A stretch of DNA of 64,000 bases from an uncultured Nitrospirales bacterium (lineage in GTDB: Bacteria > Nitrospirota > Nitrospiria > Nitrospirales > UBA8639): contig OY282373.1 of the NCBI GenBank assembly GCA_958295805.1, positions 963,001 to 1,027,000 on the forward strand, read 5' to 3'. Each line of letters starts with the position of its first letter. Within the stretch, counting starts at the first letter, position 1. Shown here in pieces: positions 2,833 to 55,146 of this stretch. Made by a program: the position numbers and the translations under genes. The notes beneath the pieces were generated by a model. That model saw nothing but the letters and a program-made list of their open reading frames with translations. It was not told the DNA's origin and made no database searches.

Positions 2833-3078
2833 ATGAATCAAAAAATTGAATCTCACGCGACTTTAGATCTTCGAGGGGTCATCTGTCCGTACAATTTTGT
2901 CAAAACCAAACTGAGGCTCGATACGATGGTGCCTGGGGAAATCTTAGCGGTCCTGTTGGATGATGGAGAACCCATCAGAAATGTCCCACGAAGCGTTGAA
3001 AATGAAGGCCACACCGTTCTCAGTCGTGAATTGGAAGGCGAGTACCATCGAGTCTGCATTCAAAAGAACCAGGACTAA
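2833..3078 (+). CDS. TusA/YedF-like sulfur-carrier family protein
   Basis: This 81-residue protein has the TusA fold signature near its N-terminus: DLRGVICPYNFVKTKLRLD, in which the Cys before Pro is the residue that carries persulfide in TusA. The rest, with a GE-L-V-DDGEP segment and a central strand-helix pattern, fits the two-layer alpha/beta fold. Family members deliver sulfur for tRNA thiolation, molybdenum cofactor synthesis or dissimilatory sulfur metabolism; which applies here cannot be told. Its stop codon overlaps that of the convergent rsmI by four bases (3075-3078), with no terminator between them. Confidence 0.85.
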   Translation: MNQKIESHATLDLRGVICPYNFVKTKLRLDTMVPGEILAVLLDDGEPIRNVPRSVENEGHTVLSRELEGEYHRVCIQKNQD

Positions 3079-3791
3079 CCTCCTGTTTTTGGTGTCTGTC
3101 TGAGATGCTTCTTCCTCTTCTTTCTTCCCTCAATGAGGAGCGTCATTTCTCCTTTCAACACTCGCGGCGGGTTTGACAACAAAATCTCTTCAGCCGTGCC
3201 GCGAATCATTTCCTCGTGGGTTTTCGTCATTTCCCGTGCGATCGCGACGCGGCGGTCTCCGAAGATTTCCTGGATGGCTGACAGCGTGGTCTTTATCCGG
3301 TGTGGCGTTTCAAACAACACGATCGTTCTGGATTCTTCAAGGAGGCTGTGGAGCAGGGCGATTCGAGCCGCGGATTTTTTGGGGAGAAATCCAATAAACG
3401 TGAAAGCGTCAGTGGGTAATCCTGCCGTGCACAGTGCTGCCATGATGGATGAAGTACCTGGAATCGGAACGATGGGAATATGGCAGTCAATGGCTCGGGT
3501 CACGAGATAGTATCCCGGGTCTGAGATGAGGGGAGTGCCCGCATCGGAAACAAGGGCAATAGATTTTCCTTCTTTGAGCCGCCCCAAAAGAATCGGAGTT
3601 TTTTCTGTTTTGTTGAAATCATGGTAACTCGTCAGAGGCGTATGGATCGTGTAATGCCGACAGAGTGTTTGCGTGTGACGAGTATCCTCCGCCGCGATCA
3701 CCGACACTTCCTGTAAAATTCGGTGGGCACGAAAGGTTAAATCTTCCAGGTTTCCAATGGGGGTACTCACGATATACAACGTTCCATACAT
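3075..3791 (-). CDS. rsmI: 16S rRNA (cytidine(1402)-2'-O)-methyltransferase
   Basis: RsmI uses S-adenosylmethionine to 2'-O-methylate C1402 in the decoding centre of 16S rRNA. The sequence opens with GTLYIVSTPIGNLEDLTFRA and continues with AAEDTRHT and SDAGTPLISDPG, the invariant motifs of this tetrapyrrole-methylase-fold family. The ATG at 3791 gives 238 residues starting right at the family's N-terminus, with GAGAG eight bases upstream. A TTG at 3827 would add a 12-residue extension with no counterpart in the family. The gene faces the TusA-like gene and shares its stop region. Confidence 0.93.
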   Translation of the reverse strand: MYGTLYIVSTPIGNLEDLTFRAHRILQEVSVIAAEDTRHTQTLCRHYTIHTPLTSYHDFNKTEKTPILLGRLKEGKSIALVSDAGTPLISDPGYYLVTRAIDCHIPIVPIPGTSSIMAALCTAGLPTDAFTFIGFLPKKSAARIALLHSLLEESRTIVLFETPHRIKTTLSAIQEIFGDRRVAIAREMTKTHEEMIRGTAEEILLSNPPRVLKGEMTLLIEGRKKRKKHLRQTPKTGG

Positions 3792-33660: not shown

Positions 33661-36600
33661 TCATTGTGAGTGCAGATGCTCAAAAATGGAATGGGTTCGT
33701 GGAAGGGCTTTCCATCTCAGGACGGTCAACGAATCCTCAACGTAATCCGACGTGCGGATGCCGTTCAGGACGCACGTGACGCCGGGCGTACTGACCAGAC
33801 TCCACAGGGCTTTTCTGGAGAGCGGTTCTCCGCGTTTCTCTTCAGGCAAAAAGGGATCAAGAGCGTCGGTGATTGATTGCAGACGGCGTTGACTTTTTTC
33901 CGCGGCTTCTTGTCTCAGGATTTTGAGAAACGTGAGCAGTTCGGGGATATACCGATTTTGCCAACGTTGCCATGCCGTGGCATGTTCCCGTGGAAGGCGT
34001 GTGGCGACGGCCTGAAGCACGTGATTGACGTGGGGCGACACCATCTGCGTTTCCATCTGCTCCCACTGCTCCAGATTCTGAACGCGTGATCGCACCTGAC
34101 TCAGTTCGTCAGCCAAGGTAAAGAAATTTTTCGGCTCCAGTCCCGTTCCCGAGTAAGGAAGATGGGGAGCGAATTCCTTCCGAAATTCCTCTTCCAGTGT
34201 GGCGACCGCGTGCTGCTGAATTTCAAAGGAGGTCTCCACGGTTTCAAATCGCGGGTCCGCGAGACGGATCATGCCCCGATGGTCAGCCGGCATCGCGTTG
34301 AGTGGTCGGTTCACGAGGACGGCAACGTCATGGGCTTGTGCCAGCTCCATCGCCGTGGTTTTCTGCTCGGGACCGGTATTCGGCGTGAGCAACGCTCCGG
34401 ATTCAAACAGGTTCATCGGTAATTGAAGCACGCGAAACCCGTGGTGCGTCTTGCCCGTCAGTCGTGCCGCGGCCTGGGCGGCGTCAAGCATCCGTGACAG
34501 CGAGGTCGCTTCAGGATCATTGGGTTTTGCCGTACTGGTGTTGGAGGAAACGCCATACCATTGCAGACGGCCCGCGTCGATTTGGCTCTCGAAATAGGCA
34601 AAAGCCTGCTGAAGGCGACGGTAAAATTCAGTGCGCCACTCGTCCAAGGCGGAGGCTTCAACGAGCAACTTGCGGTTCTTGGCGTCGGAAAGAAAATATT
34701 CGGGGTTGTGCAACAGGCAGATATCCAGCGTCGCAAGTCCGAGACGATCCAGTGACAGGGTGAGTTGATCCGCTAAAAACTCCGGGTGGATGCAGTGCCA
34801 GAGCCCGTCTCCATATTTGACCATTTCCGGGTAGGGGCGACCGGCTCGGTCCTTGGCCTGGGCCTGGGTCAGATTGTGACCTTGGACGTAACCGATTTTG
34901 GAAACCACAATTACCTGTTCCCGCGAGATTTCTTTTCTGGTCATCAATTCGTTGAGCACGCTCCCCACGAGGCGTTCACTCCCGCCGTCCGCATAGTTGG
35001 TTGAGGTATCGATGAGATTGCAGCCTTTGCGGATCGCCTGCGTGAGTGCGGATCGATGGTCGGTTTGGCCAACGTCGATCCGGTAGCAGCCAAACCCGAT
35101 TCTGGACGTCGTGAGGCCGGTGGATCCCAACGTGGTGTAGCCGTCGGCAGTGGGCATGGAAACGGAACCATCGGCGAGTATCCGGGAAACGTAGGTCGCG
35201 GTGCCGCCGGCCGTGGCTGCTCCCGAGATTCCAGTTGAAGTCAGGGCGTGAGACGGTGAACCCGTATCCGTTGGAAGCGGGTGCGTGAGAGCCTGGGTAA
35301 CGTCTTCGGAACGTGTGACGGGTGCTTGGCACGAAAAATTGCGACACACGTACAACGCGGCTCGTCCATGGACTCGTGTTTTGCCGCGGAGAAGCGGGTG
35401 CGGAGAGTCGAGGGCATCGTCAGTCCAATGCCCGATGATTCGATGAGGAAGAAAATGACGGGCGACCTCCTGCACAAGCTGGTCATATCCCGGGTCTGCC
35501 GCGGAGCCGATAAATGCCAATTCCAGCGGACCGTTCAACAGGAAATCGGCGGCCATCAACGTCTTGGCAAATCCGCGAGGAACGCGACTGATTTGCTGTC
35601 CATAAGCCCGAATGGCTCGCGTGGTAGCCTCATGGAAATCATCGCGGTCCTGGTGAAACGAGAGCCGAGCCAAGGCCATCGCCGCGACGGCGTTGCCGCT
35701 CGGCGTCGCACCATCCGGCCCTTCCCGCCCTCGCAGGATGAGCGTTTCGTGATCGTTGGCCGTGGTAAAGAAGCCGCCCTGCTCCTCATCAAGAAAATCC
35801 GTGAGCAGTCGTTCGCCCAACCGGACGGCTTCCGTGAGATATCGTGCCTGCCCGCCGGCTTCATACAGGTCGATCAGGGCTTCGATGAAACAGGCATAAT
35901 CTTCAAGGTACGCCGGCAAATGGGCTTTCTCCGCACGATAGGTTCGATAGAGTCCTCCATCGGGACGAGAGAGCCTGCCGAGCAGAAAATCCGCGGCCCG
36001 CGACGCGGATTCCAGATAAGGCGACGCGCCCAACACTCTGGCCGCTTCGGCCAGGGCACTGATCATCATGCCGTTCCAGGCCGTGATGATTTTATCGTCC
36101 AACCCGGGAGGCACGCGCTTGAGCCGCGCCTGATACACGAGCGGCTTCACCCGATCAATCGTCCGTTGCAGTTCTTCAGGAGAACAGTGGAGTTCCTTGG
36201 CCACGTGTTCAAGAGCGTAGGGAGTATTGGGAATACTGTGATGCTCCCAATTACCGTCAGGGGTGACGTCGTAATACGCACAGAATCGAGTCGCGTCTTC
36301 CTCCGAGGGGACCACGGCCCGGATTTGTTCAGGGTCCCATACGAAAAATTTTCCTTCGACGCCCTCTGAATCGGCATCGGTGGCGGAGTAATAGCCGCCT
36401 TCGGGAGACGTCATTTCTCGAATAACGTAGTCCAGAATTTCGCGGGTCACGCGCTTGTATTGGAGGTTGCCCGTCACCTGGAAGGCGGCAAGATAGGTTT
36501 TCGCGAGCAACGCGTTGTCATAGAGCATTTTCTCAAAATGAGGGACCAACCAGCGTTCATCCGTGGAATATCGGGCAAACCCGCCCCCAACGTGGTCGTA

Positions 36601-37350
36601 CATGCCGCCCGCGGCCATGGCGTCCAACGTTTTGCACACCACGTGAAGCGTGTGCTCCGCCCGGGTTCGGTGGTATTGACCAAGGAGAAAAGACAAGCCG
36701 GTGGCCGGCGGGAATTTGGGGGCTTGACCAAACCCGCCGTACACCGGGTCGAAATCCGCGGAAAATTGTTCAACGGCAGTTTCGATTTCCTGTTGCCCCA
36801 CCGTCGTGGGAGTCGGGGCGCGCATGGACGTTTGCAGTCGCGTCGTCAAGCGGGAAGCACGGTCAACGATATCGGCCCGATCCCGTGCCCATCCTTCCGC
36901 AATGTGCCGAAGGAGCGTGGCGAATCCGGGTCTTCCCCATTTATCCGTCGGTGGAAAGTAGGTTCCGGCAAAAATGGGCTGCTGCTCCGGCGTCAGGAAC
37001 ACCGTCATGGGCCAGCCGCCGTGGCCCTGATTCATCGCCAGCGTCGCCTGCATGTAAATTTCATCCAGATCGGGACGTTCTTCGCGGTCAACTTTGATGC
37101 ACACGAAGGAGGCGTTCATCATCTCCGCGATGGATTCGTTTTCAAACGATTCCCGCTCCATCACGTGGCACCAGTGGCAGGCAGAATATCCAATGGACAA
37201 CAGAATGGGTTGATCCCGTTCCTTGGCGAGGGTGAGGGCGGCTTCTCCCCAGGGAAACCAATCCACTGGATTGTAAGCGTGTTGCAGCAAATAAGGACTG
37301 GTTTCGTGAATCAGACGGTTGGGATGACGAGTGGACTGAGCCTCAGACAT
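33661..37350 (-). CDS. Fusion of a DUF255 thioredoxin-like/six-hairpin protein with an aldo-keto reductase
   Basis: A single 1229-residue frame joins two enzymes. Residues 1 to about 690 are a YyaL/SPATA20-type DUF255 protein: [20 protein letters not shown], then a thioredoxin-like site [15 protein letters not shown], then the helical barrel half ([31 protein letters not shown]). After a Ser/Thr/Gly-rich linker, residues about 735-1229 are an aldo-keto reductase: [18 protein letters not shown], catalytic Asp and Tyr in [14 protein letters not shown], Lys in VVSKIGYVQ and His in [11 protein letters not shown]255 proteins have unclear function. No frameshift or stop interrupts the junction. It is divergent from the bacterioferritin gene. 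Confidence 0.88.
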
Positions 37351-39137: not shown

Positions 39138-42100
39138 CTACCACTGCGAGCCTAGACGAACCGAGACACCGTGCGCGGTTTTCTGCCCGGGCTGTTCCGC
39201 CCGTTCGCCCTCAAGGGTCACGTCCAGTGACGAACTCAACGCTAGGCGGCTCCCTAGCCGGTAGCGGGAGGAGCCGGGGCCGGCCAAGGCCAAGCCGCCA
39301 TATGGAGTCACCAAGCCGCGCCCGTCGGCCAGGGCCAGGCCGTAGCCCAAGTCTACCTCCAGCCGGTGCGGCTGCCAGCCTGTGGCGGGTCGCGAGGTGC
39401 CGCTGGTTTGCGACAAGGCCGTCGCCGGGGACCAGAGTTGATCCACCCCGCTGCTCGCTTGCCCCCACACCGGCGCCACCGTCAGATAGGCGCCTTCGCC
39501 CGCCACCCCCGGATCCAGCCGCACACTCATACTCGCTCCCCAGTCCTCAAACGCCCCGTCCTCGTGCAGCAGCAGATACCGCCCTTGCGCGTCCACGCTC
39601 AATCCCCAATCCGTCCGCGTGTACGCCACCCCGCCGCCCAGTTCCGCGCCGAGGCCCTGCTCCGCGGTGCCGTTGTCCCACCGGCCGCCTAGCTCCAGGC
39701 GCGGCTCCAGCCGGGACACCGAGGAGACCTCCACCGCGGTCCGGCCTTCCACCAAGAGCCGCACCCGCTGCGCGTGCCCCCGCGCCGCCGGCAGATTCGT
39801 CTTGCCCGCCGACCGCACCGTCGTCAGGAACGCATCCGTCTTCGCCGCCAGATCAATCCCCTGCCACGTGGTCAGGGCTTGCCGCCCGCCCACGGCCCCC
39901 AGCCACGAGGTCAACCCCGTGGTGTACATCTGCGGGTCTCCCACCAGCTTCAGGTCCATCTCACCCCAGCCCACGCCTGCCAGGCCCCACACGCCCAACC
40001 CGGGGCGCGGTTGCCAGTGCGCATACGGCAGCACGCTCGTCAACTCGACGTCCGCCCCGGCCTTCGTCGCCCCGGTGCGTTCATAGCTCACGTCGCCGGT
40101 GCTGTGCGCCAGGGCCAAGCCCAGGAGCATCGTGGCTTGAGGCCGGTAGTCTACGCCGACGTAGCCGCTGTAGAGCGTGCCGTCCATCGTAAACCCGGCT
40201 TCGGGCTGACCGGAGAAGCCGGCGGCGGAGCCGCGGCCCCAGAGGGTCCAGGCGGGGACGCCGGCGTCCCCCGTGCGGGTCAGGGGCAACTCGAAAGCGC
40301 TGCGGGCCAGGAGGTCTTTGCCTGAGACGGACTGGAGGCGGAAGGGGCTTGAGGTGGTGGTTCGTCTGAGGTCGGTGGGAAGGCGGCCCGGGAGGTTGGT
40401 CTCATTTTGGAGAATTCCCCCCTCACCCCGGCCCTCTCCCGCAAGGGGAGAGGGGGAAGTGTCCAGATTGACGCCTAGGGCGCGGGCGACGCTGAGGGCC
40501 AGGCCGGTGGCTTGTTGCCAGGGGCTGGAGCCAACGGGGACGGCGCGGGTCTCACCTTGGAGCATACTTCCCTCACCTTGGAGAACTTCCCCCTCACCCT
40601 GGCCCTCTCCCGCGAGGGGAGAGGGAGGAGACGAGGGGGAAGGAGATTGGGGATTGGTGAGGCGGAGGACTTGGCCGCCTAGGGTCACTTGGAGGCGGGA
40701 CGCCGGGGCGGAGCCGAAGCGGCCGCCCAGAATCTCGACGGCGTCGCTGGCCAGGGTCCGGCCGACGCCCGCCAGAACCAGGCCCAGGTCGCGGCTTTGA
40801 ATGCCGGGTTTGACTTCGATGGTCAATATCATGCTATCCATGTCCCCGTCACCGTCCGTCGCGGTCAGCGTGTACGTCTGCTGGGCCTTGGGCGTCGTCG
40901 GCGTGCCCGTGATCGTGCCGCCGTGCTCCGCCCCGGCCTTCGGTTTATCGTATTTCAGCCCGAACCCGGCCGCTGAGAGGTTCGGCGTCAACTCGTAGGT
41001 GACTGGCGTGTCCCCGCCGGCGAACGGCAACGTCTCGTTCACTTCCTTGCCCGTGAAGTACGAGGGCAGCGACTTCATGGCTTCCGGGAACTTCGGTTTC
41101 TCGTCCCGATACCCCACCGCGAACGGCGCGAAGGCCTTCACCGTGGCGCAGAGCAGCACGCCCTGGTCATCCAGATCCTCCACCACCTCCGTCCACGCGC
41201 CGGTCTGGTAATGCAGGAATCGCAACTCCCGCTTCCCTCCCTCTATGTTCTCTGCCTCGGCCCGGAACGCGTCCCGCACCGGCAGGCAGATTTCCAGCCC
41301 CGCGGTCTGCACCGCGTCACGGCCCTCCCCACTCACCAAAATGTCCACCACCGTCTCCTCGTCCAGGGTAAACCGCGTACTCTCCCGCGGCACGGTCACG
41401 GCCACCGGCCGAATCATCTCCTCATAGGGCCCATCCAAGGTGGCCGCCAAGGCGGGCGTCTCACTCACTGTCACTGCCGCCGGCGTGTCGCGCTTTGTCA
41501 CTGTCGTCACAAGGAACCCATTGACCGTTCTCGTAGACGGCGGCACGTCATCTTGAAGCGTAAAGGGACTCACCTCAATGGTGAACGTGAGGCTCCCCGT
41601 GTCGCCGTCCACGTCCGTCGCGGTCAGCGTGTACGTCTGCGGGGCCGTGCGCGTCGTCGGCGTGCCCGTGATGCTCCCATCGTGCTCCGACCCCAGCTTG
41701 TCCCCCGGGAGCGTGGGGGTCAACCCGACCGGCAGGGTCGCCGGCGTCAGCGTGTAGCTGATCGGCGAATCCCCGCTCACGACCGCCGGCAGGTTGTCGC
41801 GCACATCCGTGCCCGTGTAGTACACCCGCTCCCGCCTCGCGTTCTCTGCAAACTCCGGCGTCATGTCCAGATACCCCACCGCAAACGGGGAGAAGGCCGT
41901 CACCGTGGCACAGAGCCGCCCGTTCCGGTACGCCAGATTCTCCACCTCCGTCCACTTGCCGTTCTGGTAATGCAGGATTTTCAACTCCCGCCCTAGTTCC
42001 TGTGCCTCCTCCCGCAACTCGTTCCTCACCGGCAGACAGATTTCCAGCCCCGCGATCCGCACCGTGTCAAGACCCGCCCCACTCACCGCAATGTCCACCA

Positions 42101-44504
42101 CCGTGCGATGCGTCGCCTCGGCCCCCAAGGCAAACCGCGTACTCGCCCGCGGCACGGTCTCGTCCGCCGGGGTAATCGCCACCGTAAGGGCCCCATCCAA
42201 GTCGGCCGGCGGGGTCACCGTCACCGCCGGGGGCTCGCCCGTACTCGTCACCCTCACCGTGTACCCGTTGATCGTGGTGTCCGGGCCCGGCCCCAGCATG
42301 GGTGGCTCCTCGTCCTTCACGGTCACGATCACGGTCACGGCAGACAGCGACATATAACTGGTATCGAGACTGCTGACCGTGTGCGTCAGCCTGACCTCCT
42401 CGTTCCGGTAGTCGCCCACGTCCACGACCGCGGTCACCGTCACCGGCTGCGCCGTGGCCCAGTCGGTCGTCGTGAACGTCAGGGTGGTCGGGGCGACCAT
42501 CACCGCGCCGGAGTCAGAGTTCGCCACCGTCACCGTCACATCCGCCGTCGGCTGCGACTCCAGCTTCACCGTGTATGTCTTCATGTGCGTCGTCGGGTCC
42601 GTCGTCGTCTCCTCCAGCGCCAACTCGGTCGGGGCAATCTCCAGCCCCAAGGTGTCGTCGTCGCTGACGGTCAGCGTCACGCTCGACGGGGCCGCCACGT
42701 TGTTGCCGCCCGTGGCCGTGGCCGAGATCGTCACCGCCTTGTCCGCCGCGTCCACGGCGTTGTCCACCGCCGTGACTGTCACCAGCCCCGTGCTCGTCGT
42801 CTGCTCCGCCGCAATGGTCAGCGTCGTCCCGCTCCGCGTGAAGTCGCCCGCCACCGCCGGGGCCACCGGTGTCGTCGCCACCGTCAGCGTCACCGCTTGG
42901 CTCGATTTGCCCGACAGCGTCGCCGTCACTGTCGCCACGCCGCCGGCCTCCGTGATCGTCGCCGGCGTCACGGCCAGTGTCACCGTCGGTTGCGCGTCGT
43001 CGTCCGTCGTCGTCACCGACACGGTCTCGCTACGGCCGTGGTAGTTGAGATCCCCGCTGGACGCGTCAAGCATGACGGTATAGGTCTGGTCCCCGTCGTC
43101 CACGTCGTCGTCCACTCCCGTCACCACCACCGACTGGGCCGTGTTCCAGGTCGCCATGGTGAACACCAGCACAGGCGGCGCCACCGTGCCCTCACTGGGA
43201 TTCTGGCTCGTCACCGTCACCGTCACGGCCGCCGCCGGTTGCGTCAGCAGGGCCACCGGGAAGGTTGACGTCCCGCCCGCTTCCCTGGCTTGCCCCGTCA
43301 CCGAGCCCACATCCAGGCCGTACTCGTTGTCCGCGTTGACCGCGTAGACCGTGATGGCGGAAAAGGCGTTGTAGATGGGGTCCGCCGTGCTCACCGTCAG
43401 GGTGACGGTGTAGTCTTGGTTGCCGTCGGCCACGGCCGGGGAATCGTTCACGCCGGTCAGCGTCACCGGCTGCGCCGTGTTCCACGTCGTTGCCGTGAAG
43501 GTCAGGGCCGCCGGCAATGCCGTGCCTTCCGCCGTGTCCGAACTCACCACGCCGAGCACCACGTCCCCCGTCGGCTCGCTCGCCAGCGTCACCGTGAAGG
43601 TGGCCGTGTCGCCCGACTCCGTTGTCCGCAATCGGGAGGTTGTCGTCGTCGCCGGGGACGTCGCGATCCCCGCGTCGTCGTCGTCGGTGATGGTCAGCGT
43701 TACGTCGGGCGGCGCGTTGGTCACGCTGTCGGAGGCGGTTCCCGAAACGGTCACCGCCTTGTCCGCCGCATCGATCGCGTTGTCCACCGCGGTGAGCGTC
43801 ACCGTCCCTGTGCTCGTCGTGGCGTTCGCCGCGAAGGTCAGCGTCATCGCGCTCGACGGCGTGAAGTCGGCCGACACCGCCGGGGCCACCGCCGAAGCCG
43901 ACACTGTGATCGTCACCGCGTCGGACCACTGCCGGTCGAGCGTCGCCGTCACCGTCGAAACCCCGCCAGCCTCCGAGATCGAGGCGGGCATGAGGACCAG
44001 CGCCGCACTCGGAGGCGCTACAAGAGGAACCCACTCGGTCATGCCAACGTTCCCCCCGGCAGGGCTGTTGTAGTTTTGCCACCTAAGTCTGATGACGACC
44101 CCGCCGTTGTCGATCATGGCTTGGGTCGGAACGAAATTCGTCACCGTCAAAGGGAGGTTCCGGAAACTAGGTACACTCGCTCCATAGCCCCTGAGTGACT
44201 GACACGAGGTAGATGGGAGCGGCGGATCCACCTTCGTCCAGGGACAAGCGTCAATCGCAACGCTATCCCAGACCATACTTCCTCCGGTGATTATGACTGA
44301 CTGCTGAAGCATCAGCTTGCCTATGAGGCTCGTCGTGGTCACATCATGAGTCCAGGCACCGCCCGGCGTCCATCTAGCTGGGTCCGGCGTCGTCTGAGCG
44401 AACGCCCGCGGCGCGAGCGCCGCGACGCCTGCGACCATCACCAGGATCAGCAGCACCGCCCGCCGCCGGAAGACCTCGGCCCGACCCGCGGTCATCGCAG
44501 CCAT
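39138..44504 (-). CDS. Giant autotransporter-like surface protein with Calx-beta-type repeats
   Basis: The 1788-residue frame starts with a signal peptide (RRRAVLLILVMVAGVAALAP, then RAFAQ). Residues about 165-760 are repeats of the kind PASISEAGGVSTVTATLDRQ...TVTLTAVDNAIDAADKAVTVSG...TLTITDDDDAG, similar to Calx-beta modules. Two or three larger units follow with GLEICLPVRN, FSPFAVGYLD and He_PIG/cadherin-like TYTLTATDVDGDTGSLTFTIEV. Residues about 1395-1788 look like an outer-membrane beta-barrel ending in an aromatic residue (GSQW). Two palindromic repeat copies are translated in frame as PSPLAGEGQGEGE-like segments. Such proteins are usually adhesins. Directly before the ATG lies a G19 tract (minus strand), and a better-equipped ATG is at 44598, one base out of frame. 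Confidence 0.85.
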   Translation of the reverse strand: MAAMTAGRAEVFRRRAVLLILVMVAGVAALAPRAFAQTTPDPARWTPGGAWTHDVTTTSLIGKLMLQQSVIITGGSMVWDSVAIDACPWTKVDPPLPSTSCQSLRGYGASVPSFRNLPLTVTNFVPTQAMIDNGGVVIRLRWQNYNSPAGGNVGMTEWVPLVAPPSAALVLMPASISEAGGVSTVTATLDRQWSDAVTITVSASAVAPAVSADFTPSSAMTLTFAANATTSTGTVTLTAVDNAIDAADKAVTVSGTASDSVTNAPPDVTLTITDDDDAGIATSPATTTTSRLRTTESGDTATFTVTLASEPTGDVVLGVVSSDTAEGTALPAALTFTATTWNTAQPVTLTGVNDSPAVADGNQDYTVTLTVSTADPIYNAFSAITVYAVNADNEYGLDVGSVTGQAREAGGTSTFPVALLTQPAAAVTVTVTSQNPSEGTVAPPVLVFTMATWNTAQSVVVTGVDDDVDDGDQTYTVMLDASSGDLNYHGRSETVSVTTTDDDAQPTVTLAVTPATITEAGGVATVTATLSGKSSQAVTLTVATTPVAPAVAGDFTRSGTTLTIAAEQTTSTGLVTVTAVDNAVDAADKAVTISATATGGNNVAAPSSVTLTVSDDDTLGLEIAPTELALEETTTDPTTHMKTYTVKLESQPTADVTVTVANSDSGAVMVAPTTLTFTTTDWATAQPVTVTAVVDVGDYRNEEVRLTHTVSSLDTSYMSLSAVTVIVTVKDEEPPMLGPGPDTTINGYTVRVTSTGEPPAVTVTPPADLDGALTVAITPADETVPRASTRFALGAEATHRTVVDIAVSGAGLDTVRIAGLEICLPVRNELREEAQELGRELKILHYQNGKWTEVENLAYRNGRLCATVTAFSPFAVGYLDMTPEFAENARRERVYYTGTDVRDNLPAVVSGDSPISYTLTPATLPVGLTPTLPGDKLGSEHDGSITGTPTTRTAPQTYTLTATDVDGDTGSLTFTIEVSPFTLQDDVPPSTRTVNGFLVTTVTKRDTPAAVTVSETPALAATLDGPYEEMIRPVAVTVPRESTRFTLDEETVVDILVSGEGRDAVQTAGLEICLPVRDAFRAEAENIEGGKRELRFLHYQTGAWTEVVEDLDDQGVLLCATVKAFAPFAVGYRDEKPKFPEAMKSLPSYFTGKEVNETLPFAGGDTPVTYELTPNLSAAGFGLKYDKPKAGAEHGGTITGTPTTPKAQQTYTLTATDGDGDMDSMILTIEVKPGIQSRDLGLVLAGVGRTLASDAVEILGGRFGSAPASRLQVTLGGQVLRLTNPQSPSPSSPPSPLAGEGQGEGEVLQGEGSMLQGETRAVPVGSSPWQQATGLALSVARALGVNLDTSPSPLAGEGRGEGGILQNETNLPGRLPTDLRRTTTSSPFRLQSVSGKDLLARSAFELPLTRTGDAGVPAWTLWGRGSAAGFSGQPEAGFTMDGTLYSGYVGVDYRPQATMLLGLALAHSTGDVSYERTGATKAGADVELTSVLPYAHWQPRPGLGVWGLAGVGWGEMDLKLVGDPQMYTTGLTSWLGAVGGRQALTTWQGIDLAAKTDAFLTTVRSAGKTNLPAARGHAQRVRLLVEGRTAVEVSSVSRLEPRLELGGRWDNGTAEQGLGAELGGGVAYTRTDWGLSVDAQGRYLLLHEDGAFEDWGASMSVRLDPGVAGEGAYLTVAPVWGQASSGVDQLWSPATALSQTSGTSRPATGWQPHRLEVDLGYGLALADGRGLVTPYGGLALAGPGSSRYRLGSRLALSSSLDVTLEGERAEQPGQKTAHGVSVRLGSQW
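40415..40457. repeat. Palindromic repeat copy inside the autotransporter gene (1)
   Basis: CCCCTCACCCCGGCCCTCTC...GGGGAGAGGGGG, the same family as the intergenic arrays, translated in frame (NLDTSPSPLAGEGRGEGGIL). Confidence 0.88.
40587..40627. repeat. Palindromic repeat copy inside the autotransporter gene (2)
   Basis: CCCCTCACCCTGGCCCTCTC...GGGGAGAGGG, translated in frame as PSPLAGEGQGEGEVLQ. It lies about 130 bp from copy 1; the two may have come from one duplicated insertion. Confidence 0.88.
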
Positions 44505-44505
44505 A

Positions 44506-44524
44506 CCCCCCCCCCCCCCCCCCC
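44506..44524 (-). promoter_or_regulatory. G19 homopolymer at the autotransporter start: putative phase-variation switch
   Basis: Nineteen consecutive C on the plus strand (G on the coding strand) lie one base before the ATG at 44504. From the upstream ATG at 44598 the present length leads out of frame; 18 or 21 G would join it to the signal peptide. Slipped-strand mispairing at such tracts is a known on/off mechanism for surface proteins in other bacteria. The exact count in this assembly is uncertain. Confidence 0.7.
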
Positions 44525-44595
44525 ACCCCCACAGGATCGGGTAAGGGAAGTGGTGAACGGGAGATGCGCGTATCAGTCTGAGTGTCCACGGTAGA

Positions 44596-44611
44596 CATCG
44601 GATGTTCTCCT
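44596..44611 (-). promoter_or_regulatory. Upstream ATG and ribosome binding site before the poly-G tract
   Basis: On the minus strand AAGGAGAACATCCG-ATG (ATG at 44598-44596) would start a leader MSTVDTQTDTRISRSPLPLP that runs through DPVGV into the poly-glycine tract. This signal is much better than anything next to the ATG at 44504. Confidence 0.6.
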
Positions 44612-44663
44612 TCTGCGTTGTTCAGTCGTTGGAGTCGGTCTTTTGGGTGCTGCGTGGGGAGAC

Positions 44664-44692
44664 ATATTAGGCTAAACCTCAACATAATTCAA
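44664..44692 (-). promoter_or_regulatory. Candidate promoter for the autotransporter gene
   Basis: On the minus strand TTGAAT (44692-44687) and TAATAT (44669-44664) are spaced by 17 bases in an AT-rich patch about 65 bases before the ATG at 44598. Confidence 0.45.
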
Positions 44693-44730
44693 GATAGTTG
44701 ATTTTTTCTCAACAGTGGTTGAGTTTCCTA

Positions 44731-45030
44731 GATTCCCGCGGGTGCGGGAATGACCCTAGCTCCCTCTCCCCTTGAGGGAGAGGGTCGGGGTGAGGGGGGA
44801 GGGCGCATGAGATGCGCCGCTACCGGGATTGCCGTGCATGGGCATGACGGTGGGAGTTTGCTCCCTCTCCCCTTCCGGGAGAGGGCTGGGGTGAGGGGGG
44901 GACGGCGCATGAGATGCGCCGCTACCGGGGTTCCCGTGCATGGGCATGACGGTGGGAGCGTGCTCCCTCTCCCCTTGCGGGAGAGGGTCGGGGTGAGGGG
45001 TCCCTCCTCCTGGATGTTCCACCTACCGCT
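44731..45030. repeat. Modular palindromic repeat array, right of the autotransporter gene
   Basis: It begins with an ATTCCCGC-type palindrome (44731-44754). Then follow three CCCTCTCCCC palindromes (near 44762, 44864, 44966), two GGCGCATGAGATGCGCC-type hairpins (near 44805 and 44903) and the GGATGTTCCACCTACC spacer, in the same order and orientation as the left array at 38.57-38.70 kb. Confidence 0.88.
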
Positions 45031-53790: not shown

Positions 53791-55146
53791 ATGACCCGTC
53801 TTCAATCCACGGCCCGGTCGCTGATTCCGATTGGGATGACCACGCTGTTGCCTGACGCGGCGCAGCGCGTTCGTCATCTGGAACACGTGCTGTTCGACGG
53901 GTTCGCCCGATGGGGATATCGTGAAATTATTCCGCCTTCCTTTGAATACCTGGACGTTCTGTCCGCCGGGTTGCCGGCTGAAATTCTGGAAAAGTGTTAC
54001 AAGGTGGCTGATTGGACAACCGGACGTATTTTAGTCCTTCGCCCGGACGTGACCGCGCAGATCGCGAAGATTGTCGCAATGGGGATGGCCGGGCAACACC
54101 TTCCCCTTCGGTTGAGTTATCGTTCCACGGTGTATCGGTATGAGCCGGAACACGCGGGCCGCGAACGAGAAGTGTTTCAACTGGGGGTCGAACTCATTGG
54201 CGCGGATGACGCATCAATGGACGCTGAAATCCTGACGTTGCTCATTGAGTCGCTGAAAGCCGTCGGTTTGTCGGATTTCAAGATTTCTCTCGGCCACGTT
54301 GGTTTTTACCAGACCCTGCTCGCGCAGTCGGGCTTGTCGGATCAGGGACGCAAGCAGGCCGAACTGGCGGCCGCGCGGAAAGACCTCCCGCAACTCGAAC
54401 GTATCTTGAAAACTGAACGCGTGTCGGCCAAACGGTCTCGGGCGATTCTGGAAGCCCCGGGACGATACGGACGTGAAGAAGTCTTGCAATGGGGACGAGT
54501 CGTTGCCGAACGTAATCCGCGTCTGTTGGCGCCTCTTGACCGTCTGGCCACGGTGTACGGCCTGCTCGAGACCGCGGGCGTCAAGGATCATCTGCTTTTG
54601 GACCTGGGAGAGTTTCGGGGCTTTGATTACTATGACGGCGTCGTGTTTGACGTGTTTTCCGGCAACGTCGGTTGTGAACTGGGCGGAGGCGGACGCTATA
54701 ACCATTTGATCGGCCAATTCGGCCGCGATCTGCCTTCCACGGGATTTGCCTTGGATATTGACCGATTATTCAGTGCCTTTCCTTCTCCCGCGACGGAAGC
54801 GTGCCAAGGTGAGAATGACCACCGCAGCGTGTTGGTGGTTGCGCCTTCTTCTCACTTTGGACGGGCGTTTGCCGTGAGTCAACTCCTGCGGTCGCACGGG
54901 TTGGTGGTGTGTCAAGAAACCGTGCCTCAAGGGGCGGGCACCGGGCAACGGATGATTCGGAAACGTGTGCAAGCATTGCGGGCTTCCTGTGCCGTGATGG
55001 TCGGCGTGTCCCTTCGAGGCTCAGGGCAGGCTTCCGTTTCCGACGAGGAAGCCGTGTTGATCGCCCGACGGGCCAGAGGATCGACTGCCCGGACGGTCCG
55101 CATTCAGGACCTCCCTCACCTTATCGTTCCTGCAAACGTTCACTGA
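53791..55146 (+). CDS. hisZ: ATP phosphoribosyltransferase regulatory subunit
   Basis: HisZ is the HisRS-like subunit that, with short-form HisG, catalyses and regulates the first step of histidine synthesis. The 451 residues show IPIGMTTLLPDAAQRVRHLE, the class II aaRS-type motif FEYLDVLSAGLPAEILEKCYKV, LRPDVTAQIAKIV and FRGFDYYDGVVFDVFSG, without the full set of aminoacylation residues. hisG is not in the window. The C-terminal part resembles an anticodon-binding-type domain, which makes a divergent HisRS the alternative. Confidence 0.87.
   Translation: MTRLQSTARSLIPIGMTTLLPDAAQRVRHLEHVLFDGFARWGYREIIPPSFEYLDVLSAGLPAEILEKCYKVADWTTGRILVLRPDVTAQIAKIVAMGMAGQHLPLRLSYRSTVYRYEPEHAGREREVFQLGVELIGADDASMDAEILTLLIESLKAVGLSDFKISLGHVGFYQTLLAQSGLSDQGRKQAELAAARKDLPQLERILKTERVSAKRSRAILEAPGRYGREEVLQWGRVVAERNPRLLAPLDRLATVYGLLETAGVKDHLLLDLGEFRGFDYYDGVVFDVFSGNVGCELGGGGRYNHLIGQFGRDLPSTGFALDIDRLFSAFPSPATEACQGENDHRSVLVVAPSSHFGRAFAVSQLLRSHGLVVCQETVPQGAGTGQRMIRKRVQALRASCAVMVGVSLRGSGQASVSDEEAVLIARRARGSTARTVRIQDLPHLIVPANVH

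Follow-up and report, generated by a model that had tools for sequence, protein, structure and literature searches.

The autotransporter gene and the sequence at its 5' end

In the window, that is, the whole stretch of 64,000 nucleotides that was analyzed, an open reading frame encoding 1788 residues is preceded by an uninterrupted run of 19 G, with a single T between the tract and the ATG at 44504 (Table 1). Read along the minus strand, the order of elements is AAGGAGAACATCCG-ATG(44598)-...-GTGGGGGT-G19-T-ATG(44504). The first-pass annotation had recognized this arrangement and had proposed ATG 44598 as a better start than ATG 44504; both points are borne out, the run occupying 44524–44506 with T at 44505, and AAGGAG standing 8 nt in front of the upstream ATG. 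Runs of at least 19 are expected only about 6e-6 times in the window under a first-order Markov model, and 2e-7 times under a third-order model. The candidate leader has no detectable homologue, as a DNA search across the genus matched poly-G alone. A model in which the tract acts as a promoter spacer between −35 and −10 elements was rejected at this locus, since the flanks contain no −35 element and the tract lies 3' of a good Shine–Dalgarno (SD)–ATG combination.

Table 1. Features at the autotransporter locus (window positions), and poly-G tracts and giant paralogous frames (positions in the closed genome, G000)
Feature	Position	Strand	Remarks
Autotransporter ORF, 1788 aa	39138..44504	minus	Ig/Calx-like repeat passenger
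C-terminal autotransporter beta-barrel, PF03797	39141..40187	minus	31.7 bits, cutoff 26; predicted ~14–18 strands
Sec-type signal peptide (MAAMTAGRAEVFRRRAVLLILVMVAGVAALAPRAFAQ)	44394..44504	minus	by inspection: RRR, hydrophobic core, AFAQ
Second post-tract ATG	44493..44495	minus	overlaps TGA (ATGA)
Poly-G tract (T-G19-TA)	44506..44524	minus	T at 44505, then ATG 44504
Candidate leader ORF (MSTVDTQTDTRISRSPLPLPDPVGV...)	44525..44598	minus	from ATG 44598, running into G19
Shine–Dalgarno AAGGAG	44607..44612	minus	spacing 8 nt to ATG 44598; 16S-tail duplex −9.3 kcal/mol
Weak sigma-70-like promoter, TTGAAT-17-TAATAT	44664..44692	minus	5' of leader; by eye, 4/6 + 4/6, under scan threshold
Second weak promoter match	44684–44712		promoter scan
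Three REP-like repeats, CCCTCACCCC..CCCTCTCCC..GGGGAGAGGG	44762..44999	minus	5' of leader
G13	55080		5' of 6251-aa giant-family frame; ~400 bp before likely signal-peptide start; in gene remnant
G19	1007506		tract of the 1788-aa autotransporter
G15	1134716		3' end of sugar-transferase-like gene (named by inspection)
G19	1665844		inside IS30-like transposase
G19	1986154		splits membrane-protein gene
G22	2221239		3' end of radical-SAM-like gene (named by inspection)
G22	2307090		poly-C on gene strand after SD-ATG; in frame, 281 aa
G16	2308378		poly-C on gene strand after SD-ATG; out of frame, 336 aa, secreted
G18	2500042		directly 5' of 12,361-aa giant-family frame
9184-aa stop-to-stop frame, autotransporter family	639342–666893	plus
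9287-aa stop-to-stop frame, autotransporter family	1446536–1474396	plus
13,364-aa stop-to-stop frame, autotransporter family	2109086–2149177	minus
12,361-aa stop-to-stop frame, autotransporter family	2462968–2500038	minus

Scans of the entire protein with Pfam and NCBIfam returned Ig-like repeats alone and missed the barrel, with He_PIG (residues 910–979) falling slightly under its cutoff. PF03797 was matched once the last 349 residues were scanned alone, and this domain is found in eight of 13 homologues. The AlphaFold2 model of the C-terminal domain is all-beta and barrel-like (pLDDT 71, pTM 0.59), and its Foldseek neighbours are outer-membrane barrels, including the autotransporters AaaA and EspP, at low TM-scores; a profile search against PDB sequences gave chance matches alone. 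Taking this evidence for a barrel together with the signal peptide recognized by inspection, we conclude from sequence and predicted structure that the protein is an autotransporter, as the first-pass annotation had supposed, and that its passenger is predicted to be exposed at the cell surface.

REP-like repeats are found not only 5' of the leader, but also inside the adhesin gene (40420–40454 and 40590–40622), where the in-frame reading is SPLAGEGRGEG. Elsewhere in the window, a minus-strand ORF of 1229 aa (33661–37350) appears to be a fusion, with DUF255/thioredoxin first and an aldo/keto reductase further on.

When the product of the 44598 start was computed for each tract length, three outcomes were obtained: (i) with 18 or 21 G, the leader frame continues without a stop into the 1788-residue protein; (ii) with 17 or 20 G, it stops after ...VWLR at the TGA of the ATGA (44495), 11 nt past the tract; and (iii) with 19 or 22 G, it reaches a TAG stop 129 nt 3' of the tract. 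The frame arithmetic of the first-pass annotation, in which the leader is out of frame at 19 G and joined at 18 or 21 G, is thus correct. Since homopolymers of this length are miscounted by every sequencing method, the recorded 19 may deviate from the true length by one or two, and the recorded phase would shift with it.

Poly-G tracts across the genome

The genome is closed, as a single contig of 2,904,372 bases, and was searched for homopolymer runs by pattern. It contains 25 G-runs of at least 9; nine reach at least 13 (13–22 long), compared with a Markov expectation of 0.05–0.5, while no A-run of at least 13 was found anywhere in the genome. The autotransporter belongs to a large paralog family with stop-to-stop frames of up to 13,364 aa, and three of the nine tracts (1007506, 55080 and 2500042) lie within 500 bp of the start of a giant paralog (P ~1e-6). 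Two of the giant frames, of 9184 and 9287 aa, are near-identical over the parts compared.

Within coding regions, the tracts would act on the reading frame. The membrane-protein gene at 1986154 is divided into segments of 215 and 441 aa, which are joined at 18 G and separated by a stop at the recorded 19. Although no similar Pfam family was found for this protein, an intact paralog (2237581–2239314), a 770-aa frame that is 52% identical, crosses the site without a tract and has its own G10 at another position. The genes at 2307090 and 2308378 are neighbouring but unrelated, yet their 150-bp 5' regions are similar (131 of 150 identical), and they share a layout in which AGGAGGAG or GGAGGAG is followed by ATG, three to five codons, and then C22 or C16, respectively.

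The surroundings of the runs are also biased. T immediately precedes the G-run in all nine tracts (background 32%), and TA immediately follows it in six of nine (background 4%); the same flank pattern was seen at L038, L042, L067, L088, L090 and L093. In two tracts (L012 and L015), the last codon is directly followed by the run, and the run by the stop. The T-Gn-TA flanks, which suggest a sequence-driven origin, the genus-wide spread of poly-G tracts, and the location of several tracts at the ends of genes (1134716, 2221239), within an IS30-like transposase (1665844) or within a gene remnant (55080) would all suit a neutral, hypermutable run, expanded by a mutation bias of the genus and near the autotransporter start by accident, without effect on expression. 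We consider this improbable, as such a bias would not account for the enrichment of tracts next to giant adhesins, nor for tracts that stand straight after an SD-ATG in several secreted-protein genes of three species. The idea that the tracts arose through loss of MutS was rejected: a MutS match was obtained in 60 of 60 relatives, exceeding the curated cut-off in 57, this genome included. Judged on MutS alone, general loss of mismatch repair is therefore not the cause.

Not every tract can work by frame. The giants at 55080 and 2500042 show the arrangements G13-TAAGCG-ATG and G18-TAAAAA-TTG, respectively, both in frame, while the closest full-length paralog of the autotransporter (L167) has a G7 six bases 5' of its ATG. 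As no length would fuse the 2500042 tract to its gene, frame is not the working mode of every tract. At the autotransporter gene itself, translation might start at 44504 or 44495, with the G-run in the 5' UTR serving as an SD-like, spacing or G-quadruplex element that tunes expression by its length, comparable to Moraxella UspA1, in which a G-tract 5' of the ORF alters the transcript level (PMC7302503). The G-run is predicted to pair with the 16S tail at −10.6 to −10.8 kcal/mol, compared with −9.3 kcal/mol for the leader SD, and the post-tract ATGs have a usable signal peptide, so that initiation independent of the tract is possible; the paralog arrangements just described, including the unfusable 2500042 tract, point the same way. 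However, the single nucleotide between the tract and ATG 44504 is poor spacing, the textbook SD and start of the leader would send ribosomes over the site, and the tracts at 1986154, 2307090 and 2308378 act, by sequence, on frame. We therefore hold length-dependent tuning to be unlikely here, though it deserves more weight than neutral expansion.

Tracts in relatives and in gammaproteobacterial MAGs

Among 60 relatives, long G-runs are present in 12 of the 14 genomes of the same genus, compared with 8 of 46 outside it. In one congener (L093), AAGGAGG-ATG is followed by MKKAVDSC, C14 and a lipoprotein with a PEGA domain, 15 being needed for frame; in another (L080), ATG, leader, C18 and the signal peptide of a long secreted protein are connected in frame.

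That the poly-G is false or mis-sized, as an artefact of sequencing or assembly, might be suspected given that long homopolymers are error-prone and that some short-read contigs of the genus terminate in poly-G. We regard this as very improbable, since the tracts are internal to a closed chromosome with ordinary coding flanks, consist of G alone and never of A, and show an architecture common to independent MAGs, in which they are contig-internal. The short-read MAGs with contigs ending at or near poly-G are G003, G007, G008, G011, G012 and G013, all of the same genus; because contigs break there, tract-bearing genes are probably under-annotated in the genus.

A 490-bp stretch of the adhesin gene (43901–44391), beginning just 3' of the signal peptide, is about 90% identical in DNA to positions 2991–3481 of both L063 and L064, which belong to two MAGs of uncultured Pseudomonadales, OY282455 (G060) and OY282379 (G061). 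As the 16S identity of the genus to these two MAGs, and likewise to Escherichia coli, is only 76–78%, this similarity suggests that the adhesin module has likely spread horizontally, across phyla. The same 16S values led us to reject a gammaproteobacterial identity of the host, which the L063/L064 match had first brought to mind.

G060 contains 34 G-runs of at least 13, some of them in repeated genes. One set of three tandem copies, identical over their 150-bp flanks, carries 17, 13 and 19 C; a pair of copies with identical flanks carries 25 and 33; and in a further set, made up of three copies of the 5' region of one giant gene, the runs are 8, 31 and 22, the upstream flank of the copy with 8 C being different. 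Among the data at hand, these repeats argue most strongly that such tracts change faster than their flanks, albeit in another organism and with homopolymer miscalls possible.

The same contig (OY282455.1) also encodes genes of about 50–60 aa that share a (K/R)xWxKP motif and have poly-C close to their start (L098, L100, L104, L105, L114, L115, L118 and L119), some of which adjoin GT8, 2OG-oxygenase or HprK-related genes. These short genes match no family, and look like phase-variable peptide (RiPP-like) precursors. At L117 of this contig, a GPP34 (GOLPH3-like) gene has C16 after its ATG, a run length that leaves it out of frame.

A candidate contingency locus in a probable sponge symbiont

We think it reasonably probable, from the sequence evidence, that the tract is a slippage contingency locus, in which gain or loss of G at replication would change the product made from the start at 44598. 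The G-run would lie in the transcribed, and probably translated, 5' end of the autotransporter gene, where a change by a single G would yield a different product from this strong start. With 18 or 21 G, the leader would be fused in frame, placing a Gly-rich extension ahead of the signal peptide. With 17 or 20 G, termination in the ATGA that overlaps a signal-peptide ATG would allow coupled restart, and at 20 G the G-run would stand where an SD for re-initiation at 44495 is expected. With 19 or 22 G, ribosomes would pass 129 nt beyond the 44495 start, which would be occluded, and expression would drop. We infer variation in length between cells, 44598 as the main start, and an output with three states.

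The contingency reading draws on the non-random tract, the frame outcomes, the genome- and genus-wide tracts, the enrichment at giant paralogs, the split membrane gene and the length differences among the G060 repeats. Against it stand the post-tract ATGs with their good signal peptide and SD-like G-run, owing to which the leader may not matter; the failure to detect a homologue of the leader; the 2500042 tract, for which no fusion is possible; the 55080 tract, 400 bp before the likely start; and homopolymer miscalls, which could account for some of the repeat differences. The first-pass annotation had seen a poly-G on/off device. Its notion of a contingency locus is supported by the tracts in genome and genus, the giant-paralog enrichment, the split gene and the repeat lengths elsewhere, while a simple on/off switch from 44598 is less certain, given the usable post-tract ATGs and the pairing of the G-run with the 16S tail. 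Frame switching and tuning from the 5' side are both contingency models, differing in their readout alone, and both are more probable than neutral expansion or artefact.

The first-pass annotation had also called the genome environmental, which should probably be revised to host-associated. With probe letters checked against PMC6593226, the 16S of a same-genus genome (G001) matches Ntspa712, a probe for Nitrospirota, and Ntspa662, a probe for Nitrospira, with a single mismatch each. The GTDB genus bin75 corresponds to Ca. Nitrosymbion, nitrite oxidisers chiefly of sponges (PMC11812461), and the genome sizes in our genus (1.9–3.0 Mb) and the GC content of the window (58.2%) are consistent with that description, so that the genus looks like this sponge symbiont.

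G-tract phase-variable autotransporter genes have already been described (PMC7302503, PMC6321876). In Moraxella catarrhalis, the autotransporter adhesin genes mid/hag and uspA1 likewise have 5' poly-G tracts; mid/hag is switched on and off, and uspA1 is tuned from 5' of the ORF (PMC7302503). However, those tracts are of about 6–13 G, in trimeric adhesins of a human pathogen, and their length variation has been measured, whereas for the tract described here it is predicted. The Campylobacter poly-G phasome likewise extends over the genome, with autotransporter and surface-modification genes among those that carry contingency tracts (PMC6321876), but typical tracts there have 9–10 G, and those of 13–15 are rare. 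Here, tract lengths are 13–22, reaching 33 in G060, the number of loci per genome is far lower, and MutS is present. Listeria monocytogenes inlA, which encodes a surface protein, also has a homopolymer close to its 5' end, where a frameshift leaves a short peptide, although that tract is a poly-A of 6–7, unlike the G19 here; Orsi et al. reported G/C tracts of more than 2 bases to be generally underrepresented in prokaryote genes (PMC2831843). In a search of openly accessible papers, we found no report of poly-G phase variation in Nitrospirota/Nitrospira or sponge symbionts. Since the known poly-G switches are shorter, and given this literature, we see here a probable case of a known type of switch in an unexpected lineage and with unusually long tracts.

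More speculatively, and with little confidence, we suggest that a lineage-specific process inserts long G-runs at T|TA sites in otherwise intact genes, which would create slippage switches of adhesins and the envelope in a sponge-associated nitrite oxidiser; at this locus, the result would be a translational switch with three states, namely fusion, coupled restart and an occluded start.

The tracts may explain the poly-G breaks in short-read MAGs of the genus, which would hide adhesin starts from annotation. Most known cases of poly-G phase variation come from mucosal pathogens. Should the mechanism also operate in an apparently sponge-dwelling member of the Nitrospirota and in a gammaproteobacterium that shares adhesin DNA with it, surface switching would serve long-term symbionts as well, and sponge tissue would be a natural place for measuring slippage with long reads.
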